DNA from: Alterileibacterium massiliense | GTDB taxonomy: Bacteria > Bacillota > Clostridia > Peptostreptococcales > Anaerovoracaceae | Assembly (NCBI RefSeq): GCF_900104645.1 | Contig: NZ_FNWE01000002.1 | Span: 511,289-575,288, forward strand | DNA: 64,000 bases | Reading direction: 5' to 3' | In this document: piece by piece, positions 25,625 to 29,261 of the stretch | How the letters are laid out: the number at the start of each line of letters is the position of its first letter | How positions within the stretch are numbered: position 1 is the stretch's first letter | The notes under the pieces: model-generated | Database searches by the model: none | Told to the model about the DNA's origin: nothing | Seen by the model: the letters and a program-made list of their open reading frames with translations, nothing else | Program-made: the position numbers and the translations under genes

Positions 25625-25655
25625 ACAGAGAGGGTAAAACCTCTCTGTTTTTTTA
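25625..25655 (+). terminator. Terminator just before the SHIRT gene remnant
   Basis: A 9-bp stem ACAGAGAGG/CCTCTCTGT with a 6-nt loop followed by seven T. No intact gene feeds into it. A 14-bp tandem duplication (attaaagtaggagt/attaaagtaggtgt, 25559-25586) lies before it. It abuts the open frame of the remnant, so this is the break point of the original gene. Confidence 0.85.
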
Positions 25656-26498
25656 GGAGAATGGACATTTGTACCAAACAAGCACAATGTAACATATGAG
25701 TACAAGAGCGGAACTGCAGGAATGGACATACCTGACGCACTAAAGGATAAAGCACCAAGCAAAGTAACAGGCAAGGTGAAAGGTGACAAGGTAACATCAC
25801 CAGTGCCAACAGGAAAAGACGCAGAATTTAGAGATGAAGCTGGTAAGGGAACATGGAAGTTCAAGAGCTACGACAAGAGCGAAGTAACGATAGATAACAA
25901 GGACGAACATGTAGTTGGAACATGGGTATTTGAAAAAGACCCAGCACCAAAGACCTACAAGGTAACGCATAAGTTTGAGAGTGAAGATCCAAATGTAGAG
26001 CTACCGGATGCTGTAAAGAAATTACAACCAAGCGACGAGACAGGAAAGGCAGACGGAAGCAAGGTAACTCCAACATAGCCAAATACAAAGAAAGTAGAAA
26101 CAAATGAAGGAACTATTTATACCGATGCTAAGGAAGATGCTATAACGGTAGAAAATAAAGATGAGCAGTCAATGCTTAAGATAGGCAATTTAGTAATCTC
26201 ATCTGACAAAGGCAAGATGGCGGATTCAGTGCTTAATAAAAATGTAATAAAGGTCAGAAAACTTGGTGACGAAATGATTTCATATAAGTTTGAACCTGAG
26301 GCTAATGATTTCAAGCTTACTTTTGTAAAAGACGGGTATCAGATAGTAAAGAAGAAGTTTGATAAGGATAAAGACGATGCTAGGCAAAACGAAAAACTTC
26401 GCCCATCGACAGGAGATAGTACTGATATAACCATAGGTTTATTGATTATTCTTTTGTCAATACCTTTTATTTCAAAATTAAAAAGAAAAGAGAGATAA
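25656..26498 (+). pseudogene. SHIRT-repeat cell-wall-anchored surface protein, 5'-truncated and with internal stop
   Basis: One reading frame runs from the terminator to 26498, broken by a TAG at 26076-26078. The first part encodes the end of one and most of two SHIRT-like adhesin repeats (GEWTFVPNKHNVTYEYKSG; TYKVTHKFESEDPNVELPDA), which normally form rod-like stalks. After the stop the same frame continues PNTKKVETNEGT and ends in RPSTGDS, a hydrophobic helix and KRKER, a sortase signal of the P-x-T-G-D type. No signal peptide, start codon with ribosome binding site or N-terminal domain is present. It is either a decayed gene or a silent donor cassette. Confidence 0.8.
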
Positions 26499-26793: not shown

Positions 26794-27093
26794 ATGGCTA
26801 ATCAAAAAATTAAGAGGACGAATAGGTTCGGAGGGGTGACTTATAATATTGTAAAGCATATAGGCGTTGTTGCTAAATACAAGAGTGGCTGGTCTAAAGA
26901 GCTTAATATTGTCGAATGGAATGACGGACCGCCTAAATATGATTTGAGGGACTGGGATAGTGAGCATGAGAATATGGGCAAAGGGCTCACCTTTGTAAAG
27001 TCAGAAGCAAGAGAGCTCGCGAGGCTCTTAGAGGAAAGCTTTGACCTTGAAGATATTGATAAAATACCTGAAAAAATTGACAAGATGAAATAG
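26794..27093 (+). CDS. YdbC family PC4-like single-stranded DNA-binding protein
   Basis: 99 residues resembling the lactococcal YdbC family, a bacterial relative of the eukaryotic coactivator PC4 that binds single-stranded DNA. Characteristic strings are VKHIGVVAKYKSGWSKELN, VEWNDGPPKYDLRDWD and MGKGLTFVKSEARELARLLE. An N-terminal basic stretch (QKIKRTNRFGG) would help DNA contact. GAAAGGAG before the ATG. It stands alone between terminator and adhesin gene; its role is probably in replication, repair or transcription. Confidence 0.85.
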   Translation: MANQKIKRTNRFGGVTYNIVKHIGVVAKYKSGWSKELNIVEWNDGPPKYDLRDWDSEHENMGKGLTFVKSEARELARLLEESFDLEDIDKIPEKIDKMK

Positions 27094-27221: not shown

Positions 27222-27245
27222 TTGATATATATATATATATATAAT
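27222..27245 (+). promoter_or_regulatory. Candidate (TA)n slipped-strand promoter of the adhesin gene
   Basis: TTGATA (27222-27227) and TATAAT (27240-27245) are separated only by TA dinucleotides; the tract 27226-27243 holds nine TA units and ends in the -10 box. The spacer is now 12 bp, too short; adding two or three TA units would give 16 or 18 bp. The -10 box is 54 bp before the adhesin ATG. A length-variable promoter is inferred. A weaker alternative (TTGCTA, 17 nt, TAAATT) lies between it and the gene. Confidence 0.5.
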
Positions 27246-27299
27246 GGAATAAGGAAAATATTGCTACTGATAAACAAGATATATAAATTATAGGAAGGA

Positions 27300-29261
27300 A
27301 TGAGAAAAGTGAATGGTAAATTAATTGGCAAATTAAATGTATTTGCACTTATAATCACAATCTGCCTAGCAATTCTTTTTAGCGGATTTACTGATTTCAA
27401 TCAAGTTCATGCTGATGAAACTCAGGATGTGGAAGTAACAAATCTTGTAGGTAGAATTGGTGGAGGTGAAAGTGTAGGTTTATCTTTTAATTTAAAGATA
27501 AATCGTAGAGTAAAGCAAGGTGAGGAGATAGTTTTAAACCTTGGATATGATAAAGTTGATAAAAATGACGCTTTATATTTTAATCGAAGTTCATATGGTG
27601 AAATTAGCATAAAGAAGAATGATGGCTCAAAAGATATAATAGGTACAGTTATGGCATATGGTCATTCTAATGTTATTAAGTTTATTTTTAATAAAAAGGC
27701 GGAAAATTATGATGTGATAGATATTGATTTATCTTTTCCTCATGTTATTTACGATATAACTGCGTTTTCAGGAACAACTTCAAATCTAACACTAAAATTA
27801 CCATTTTATTTAACTATGGATGGCAAAAATATTACAAAAAAAGAGGCATTTGTAACCAGAGTCTATGAACCATATACGAAAATTACTCAGCTTAGCAATG
27901 GATTTATTAGCCGAGATTTAGAATCATTTTTTTATAGTGTTTATGTTGGACATAATGCCAAAAGCGGTGATATTATAGTTGAGTATCCAAATGAGCTCGT
28001 AGCCAATATTGATGGTATTAATCTTATGAACTGCAATTGTTTTACTATAAAAAAGCCAGATATAAATAATACTCTGATTAAAGCAAGAAAACTTACAAAA
28101 GTAGATGATAATTCATTATCAATTAAAAAAATAGATGGCAATAAAGTTGTAATACATTTTGATAAAGACAAATATAAATCAGAAGATATTGAAGGTATTA
28201 CAAATATAGTGTTTAAATATAAAGATGGATTTTCATATCAAGATGATCCCGCAAGAATTATTAAAATAGATTATACTGGTATTGGCGGAGTTATCAAAGA
28301 AGAAATAATAAAAAAAGCAGTAATTAATACCGGAGGAACAGGCACTATACTTGATGTTAGCAAGTATCAGCCTGAGGCAAGCCCTATTACAGTTCACAAG
28401 GGAGATGAGCTTAGCAACAAGATGATTACAGACCATGTAATTATCAAAGATAAAGACGGAAAGACTGTTAAAGCTGAGGACATCAATGCTACCAAGACAA
28501 GAGTAGATAATAATAAGATTGATACAAATACTGTCGGTAATTACAAGGCGACTGTGAATGTTGAATACAAAGACGGAAGCACAGAAAATGTTACAGTTCC
28601 TATTAAGGTAATTGACAATGTAATACCTAATCTTCCTGATGAAAATGGTAAAAATCCAGAAAAGCCTGATGGATATGTGACGGTAACGATGAATGCAGGT
28701 CAGCATGGTATGCTTGCAAAAGGCGAAGCAAAGGAATATTTTGTAAATCCTGAGAAGGTTGTCACAATACCTGCAAAGGACGCAATTGGTAAGCTAGGTT
28801 ATAAGTTCAGCAAATGGGATAGTCCGCTTAAAGCACAATTTAAGAATGACAAAACCATAAATGCGAAATATAAACAGCTTCCAGATGTAATACCTAATGT
28901 TCCTGACCATAATGGTAAAAAGCCTGAAAAGCCTGACGGTTATGTAACCGTAGTTGTTGACCCTGGTAATAATGGTAAGCTTGATCCAAGAGATGCAGGT
29001 GAATATTTTGTAAATCCAACAAAAGAAGTAACAATTCCTATTCATAATGCAGTTCCAAATGATGGATACAAGTTTAATAAATGGAGTCCAAGCAAGACTG
29101 GGCATTTCGACCATGATATGACTATCAAAGCTAAATATCTTGCAAAAGGTAATGCTAATAAGCCACAAACAGGAGATAATGGAATTGAAATTCCACTAGC
29201 TGTACTTATTTCAACTATAGGCATGGCATTTGTAGCAGTTAAAACTAAGAAGCATATTTAG
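27300..29261 (+). CDS. Cell-wall-anchored adhesin-like surface protein (P-Q-T-G-D sorting signal)
   Basis: 653 residues. Signal peptide 1-38 with likely cleavage VHA/DE. Residues about 41-340 look like beta-rich adhesin domains with no certain family. Residues about 350-435 form a Rib/Ig-like repeat (KGDELSNKMITDHVIIKDKD). Two InlB B-like repeats follow (about 440-525 and 529-615), each beginning VIPNxPDxNGKxPEKPDGYV. The C-terminus has KPQTGDNG, a hydrophobic helix and KTKKHI, for sortase linkage to peptidoglycan. AGGAAGGA overlaps the start region. A terminator follows, so it is a single gene. The ligand is unknown. Confidence 0.88.
   Translation: MRKVNGKLIGKLNVFALIITICLAILFSGFTDFNQVHADETQDVEVTNLVGRIGGGESVGLSFNLKINRRVKQGEEIVLNLGYDKVDKNDALYFNRSSYGEISIKKNDGSKDIIGTVMAYGHSNVIKFIFNKKAENYDVIDIDLSFPHVIYDITAFSGTTSNLTLKLPFYLTMDGKNITKKEAFVTRVYEPYTKITQLSNGFISRDLESFFYSVYVGHNAKSGDIIVEYPNELVANIDGINLMNCNCFTIKKPDINNTLIKARKLTKVDDNSLSIKKIDGNKVVIHFDKDKYKSEDIEGITNIVFKYKDGFSYQDDPARIIKIDYTGIGGVIKEEIIKKAVINTGGTGTILDVSKYQPEASPITVHKGDELSNKMITDHVIIKDKDGKTVKAEDINATKTRVDNNKIDTNTVGNYKATVNVEYKDGSTENVTVPIKVIDNVIPNLPDENGKNPEKPDGYVTVTMNAGQHGMLAKGEAKEYFVNPEKVVTIPAKDAIGKLGYKFSKWDSPLKAQFKNDKTINAKYKQLPDVIPNVPDHNGKKPEKPDGYVTVVVDPGNNGKLDPRDAGEYFVNPTKEVTIPIHNAVPNDGYKFNKWSPSKTGHFDHDMTIKAKYLAKGNANKPQTGDNGIEIPLAVLISTIGMAFVAVKTKKHI

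Follow-up and report, generated by a model that had tools for sequence, protein, structure and literature searches.

The question raised by this locus is whether a pure run of TA dinucleotides upstream of a surface-protein gene of Alterileibacterium massiliense is the variable spacer of a phase-variable promoter. The run comprises nine units and lies at positions 27226 to 27243 on the forward strand of the window, the whole stretch of 64,000 nucleotides analysed here, as seen in the sequence and in a genome-wide pattern search; TRF called it at 27225-27243 with 9.5 AT units. It is the central part of TTGATATATATATATATATATAAT (27222-27245), that is, TTGA(TA)9AT. From consensus matches alone, two forward-strand hexamers could be recognised in this segment, a −35-like TTGATA (27222-27227), which agrees with TTGACA at five of six positions, and a −10-like TATAAT (27240-27245). 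Both overlap the run: the final TA of TTGATA is its first unit and the TATA of TATAAT corresponds to its final two. Between them remains a forward-strand spacer of 12 bp that consists of TA only (27228-27239), and for n units the spacer amounts to 2(n−3) bp. An initial sequence-only reading had described the two hexamers as joined by TA alone over a 12-bp spacer, in agreement with the sequence at 27222-27245; by the same formula it was also right that two or three added units would give 16-18 bp.

The promoter match is partly forced. A TA run followed by AT always yields TATAAT, so that the −10-like hexamer is automatic, and the independent parts of the match are the 5' TTGA and the 3' AT. TTGA is present at 0.7% of positions, and AT follows about 10% of TAs. 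A scan for promoters with spacers of 16-18 bp gave no convincing better candidate in the intergenic gap before the gene, and a preference for such spacers was only weakly visible when the promoters of this genome were scanned. RNA-level explanations gained no backing either: the tract matched no Rfam family, and the sequence immediately 5' of the run has no stable fold. A DNA match within the same genome, at the dnaA-rpmH gap (L026), was considered as a second promoter of this kind and rejected as an AT-rich chance similarity. Between the run and the ATG at 27300 lie 56 bases. A ribosome binding site, AGGAAGGA, was read from the sequence at 27292-27299 on the forward strand; its position is better suited to an in-frame GTG codon (27309) than to the ATG.

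The run is pure and longer than expected by chance. This site holds the only (TA)8 of the window, compared with 0.00 in shuffled windows, and a pattern search of the 1.45-Mb genome for runs of at least six units returned this tract alone. The shorter (TA)4 matched 168 times genome-wide, six of these matches lying within the tract itself. Markov models built from the window sequence (order 1 to 5) and scaled to this genome size predicted 0.0006-0.006 copies of (TA)9 per genome. The genome contains an intact mutS, and no rise in slippage through loss of MutS is therefore expected; with this gene present (mutS alone was checked), loss of mismatch repair was dropped as the cause of the tract.

Downstream, positions 27300-29261 of the forward strand encode a wall-anchored, adhesin-like surface protein of 653 residues. 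A signal peptide region, MRKVNGKLIGKLNVFALIITICLAILFSGFTDFNQVHAD, was read from the translation at 27300-27416. It is followed by an Ig-like region (27465-27749), a Rib domain (PF08428, 28353-28613; E 1e-11, 45.7 bits against a cut-off of 27) and a divergent InlB B-repeat (PF18998, 28947-29105; E 1e-8), which is preceded by a second, similar unit read from the translation. A match to TIGR02331 fell slightly under its cut-off. The C-terminal end (29160-29258), likewise read from the translation, carries a sorting signal composed of KPQTGD, a hydrophobic membrane stretch and a charged tail, all these features being on the forward strand, and a sortase gene is present in the same genome (G000:C2:98159). 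The Rib domain, the sorting signal and the sortase place the product among the Rib/alpha-like wall-anchored proteins, with sorting to the wall predicted. The earlier description of the product as a wall-anchored adhesin-like protein is thereby borne out by its signal peptide, Rib domain, InlB-type repeat, KPQTG signal and the sortase.

The N-terminal part is less clearly defined. The Ig-like region matched Pfam Big_8 over residues 56-150 with an E-value of 0.0005 and 20.7 bits, under the cut-off of 22.9. A single-sequence model of residues 38-200 gave a low-confidence fold (pLDDT 68) with ClfB, ACE, in its collagen-binding part, and Srr1 as the best PDB matches, at TM scores of at most 0.47; FnBPA was matched as well, ranked after a few unrelated chains. 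These weak matches hint that the region may be clumping-factor-like; an N2-N3 pair of Ig-like ligand-binding domains, as in the MSCRAMM adhesins (ClfA/ClfB/FnBP), is at most a candidate assignment. With Big_8 under its cut-off and model matches of this quality, adhesin is a reasonable label for the product that is unproved. Searches with the adhesin in genome_contigs and with its N-terminal region across 350 family genomes returned no relative, and the gene therefore looks like an accessory one. Searches for the region in plasmids and for the tract flank in viral contigs likewise returned nothing, so that neither an orthologue nor a second strain emerged. Among the neighbouring genes, one product has [Eubacterium] infirmum as the source of its nearest named relative, at 48% identity, which puts the organism with the small anaerobic clostridia of this type.

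Long TA runs were then sought in relatives. Ten of the 350 family genomes contained runs of at least eight units, at 16 distinct sites. One of these, in G079, abuts adapter sequence, presumably Nextera, and was dropped, leaving 15 sites. Seven of them, spread over three genera (one in the window, one in G256 and five in G322), are placed either ahead of a gene for an exported or wall protein or within its first codons, and the other eight lie at unrelated genes. The sister species G065 and G068 have a conserved run of 10 and 9 units, respectively (L055 and L056, tract at 1501), 60-80 bases before the gene of a small membrane protein, which is not a surface gene. A (TA)8 in G036 (L059:1501-1516) is located within the first codons of a 303-residue membrane protein (MTEFLLYIYIYSFIG); it is in frame as sequenced, and a change in unit number would shift the frame.

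In G322, which belongs to another genus of the same family, all five runs of at least eight units are at genes for exported proteins, some of which are paralogous, so that the five tracts are not all independent. One of them, TTGACA(TA)8AT, precedes an exported protein and reproduces the 12-bp spacer; another, a (TA)9, is found 223 bases before a giant protein with a Rib domain. The same genome carries two tandem, 80% identical paralogues of a cell-wall-binding protein (L051:6823-9864, on G322:C6) with choline-binding-type repeats and a transglutaminase-like domain. Their TA runs fall in the signal-peptide codons, where (TA)10 preserves the reading frame and (TA)6 breaks it, and the two genes are likely to be a translational phase-variation pair. 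G256 and G258, sister species of one genus, encode homologous LPXTG proteins (43% identity over 426 residues, E 4e-92) that are preceded at the equivalent site by (TA)16 in G256 (L100:6475-6506) and by (TA)7 in G258 (L102:3887-3900). Here the order is a palindrome, the TA run and TG[A/C]TAAAAT, the last resembling an extended −10 element. The palindromes, which lie upstream of the tracts, may be regulator sites and suggest that a regulator rather than a −35 element may be what matters at these two loci.

The promoter arrangement at the tract was further compared across the order. TTGANA, a TA stretch and TATAAT were found in succession at 11 sites in 394 genomes. Two of these, in the window and in G322, are pure TA runs, both with a 12-bp spacer; the remaining nine are interrupted, with spacers of 17 bp (seven sites, three of them near-identical), 18 bp and 22 bp. 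Given this clustering of the interrupted sites at 17 bp, the two pure runs are off the normal spacing. At the level of the phylum, 398 sampled genomes, G322 not among them, showed the long pure form in the window alone.

We consider it probable that the tract belongs to a promoter-spacer contingency locus of the kind known from the hif genes, driven by slippage and sequenced here in a low or off state. The (TA)9 tract would act as a length-variable spacer in a sigma-A-type promoter, in which replication slippage would add or remove TA units and thereby shift TTGATA relative to TATAAT in steps of 2 bp. Transcription of the adhesin-like gene would be strong only when the spacer is near 16-18 bp, and the sequenced state with nine units would be low or off, a prediction made from the 12-bp spacer alone. 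Direct observations are the tract with its uniqueness, the geometry of the promoter and the surface-protein product; judged from the genome sequences, two other genera likewise have TA runs of differing length at genes for surface proteins. From these we infer that slippage occurs in this species, that the promoter is used and that expression is affected, with the unit number presumably controlling transcription of the surface-protein gene. Such runs at surface genes of relatives, whose length differs from one sister species or paralogue to the other, support the contingency-locus reading. Phase variation at this promoter, as initially proposed, is thus plausible and partly supported, through the evidence from two other genera; the initial observation itself is now stronger, because the tract is unique in its genome and its kind recurs at surface genes of relatives. 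More tentatively, and with the balance somewhat against it, a TA contingency system could extend across several genera of the family, combining tuning of promoter spacers (G000, G322 and probably G256/G258) with frame switching in signal peptides (G322), in all cases at exported proteins, whether wall-anchored, cell-wall-binding or otherwise exported.

A different explanation would be a neutral microsatellite, with the adhesin expressed from another promoter or by read-through from the PC4-like gene upstream and with the unit number nearly irrelevant. The PC4-like gene (26794-27093) is co-directional on the forward strand. The sequence from its end to the tract showed no terminator-like structure in this orientation, which makes read-through into the adhesin gene possible. 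The intergenic region before the adhesin gene moreover has a GC content of only 22%, and about half of the long TA runs of the family are at unrelated genes. However, AT-rich gaps are common in this genome and none of them holds another run of six or more units. The exact placement between two hexamers, which is repeated in G322, also speaks against neutrality, as does the finding that seven of the 15 long family runs, from three genera, accompany genes for exported or wall proteins. Overall, we regard a neutral tract as unlikely.

The 12-bp spacing could also be functional as it stands, in a fixed promoter whose TA spacer is flexible or whose regulator compensates for the short distance, the length then being conserved since 12 bp works. 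The independent occurrence of this spacer in A. massiliense and in G322 would fit such a promoter, and activator-dependent promoters with non-optimal spacers exist, which counts in its favour. Against it stand the nine other sites of the same promoter type in the order, none of which is shorter than 17 bp, and the tract length that differs before the homologous gene pair of G256 and G258; in addition, nine uninterrupted TA units should be unstable. Taken together, this makes a fixed promoter quite improbable. That the unit number reflects a sequencing or assembly error, the real tract being of another or of fixed length, appears hardly credible: dinucleotide runs are error-prone, and the run of G079 was indeed joined to adapter sequence, but 18 bases are well inside a single read on any platform and the flanks of the present tract are normal gene and intergenic sequence on a contig of 1.07 Mb.

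The phase variation known in Clostridia is mostly due to DNA inversion. If the proposed spacer switch is true, it adds a simple-repeat slippage mechanism for a poorly studied group, and the tract marks surface proteins under variable selection. The TA unit number would be a cheap marker, readable directly from existing reads.

Comparable promoters have been described in other bacteria. The hifA/hifB promoter of the Haemophilus influenzae fimbriae switches with (TA)9-11, according to the passages on this system in PMC2651432 and PMC3899988, which refer to van Ham 1993. It resembles the present tract in having TA units between −35 and −10, in serving genes for an adhesive surface structure and in including a nine-unit state; switching by 2-bp spacer steps, as in hif, is proposed here as well. 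In contrast, the hif promoter is divergent and serves a pilin and a chaperone gene, both fimbrial, in a Gram-negative organism, and length variation is known for hif only, whereas the present tract has a single direction and a sortase-type wall protein in a clostridial lineage. The hif locus proper was not matched, the tract being flanked by the co-directional PC4-like gene on the left and the wall-anchored protein gene on the right.

The closest Gram-positive parallel is R28 (Spy1336) of Streptococcus pyogenes, a wall protein of the Rib family. Its transcript level depends on the length of a T-tract in the promoter, with almost no transcript in strains with 9 T and much with 10 or 11 T (PMC7098570). 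The same paper mentions an AGATT repeat for bca of group B streptococcus (PMC7098570). Like the present locus, both belong to Gram-positive bacteria and have a simple repeat upstream of a gene whose wall-anchored product is of the Rib/alpha family; in both, the repeat length is linked to expression. They differ from the TA dinucleotide in having a mononucleotide or pentanucleotide repeat, and R28 is adjoined by a divergent AraC-type regulator that has no counterpart beside the adhesin gene. The poly-G tract in the promoter spacer of porA in Neisseria meningitidis, cited in PMC3899988, also tunes transcription of a surface protein from between −35 and −10, but it is a homopolymer and the proteins are unrelated; similar promoter tracts are cited there for Mycoplasma hyorhinis and Bordetella. 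A literature search of open-licence papers found no clostridial or Gram-positive TA-repeat switch. Most likely, the locus is a slippage-driven on/off switch of an already known type, in a bacterial group for which the search turned up none.

Finally, further wall-protein sequences were noted in this genome. A wall protein of 2478 residues with an SPTTG signal (L053:1815-9251, on C1) has Rib/InlB-type repeat sequence in common with the adhesin, and no run of at least six TA units was found near its gene. Within the window, positions 25662-26498 hold the remnant of another wall-anchored gene with SHIRT repeats and an RPSTGD sorting signal. Its 5' end is devoid of a signal peptide and an in-frame TAG is present at 26076-26078; two surface-protein genes are thus nearly adjacent, one of them decayed. 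In the gap between the rubrerythrin gene and this remnant, a strong terminator-like hairpin is formed at 25626-25654 by CAGAGAGG, a loop and CCTCTCTG, with a T run.
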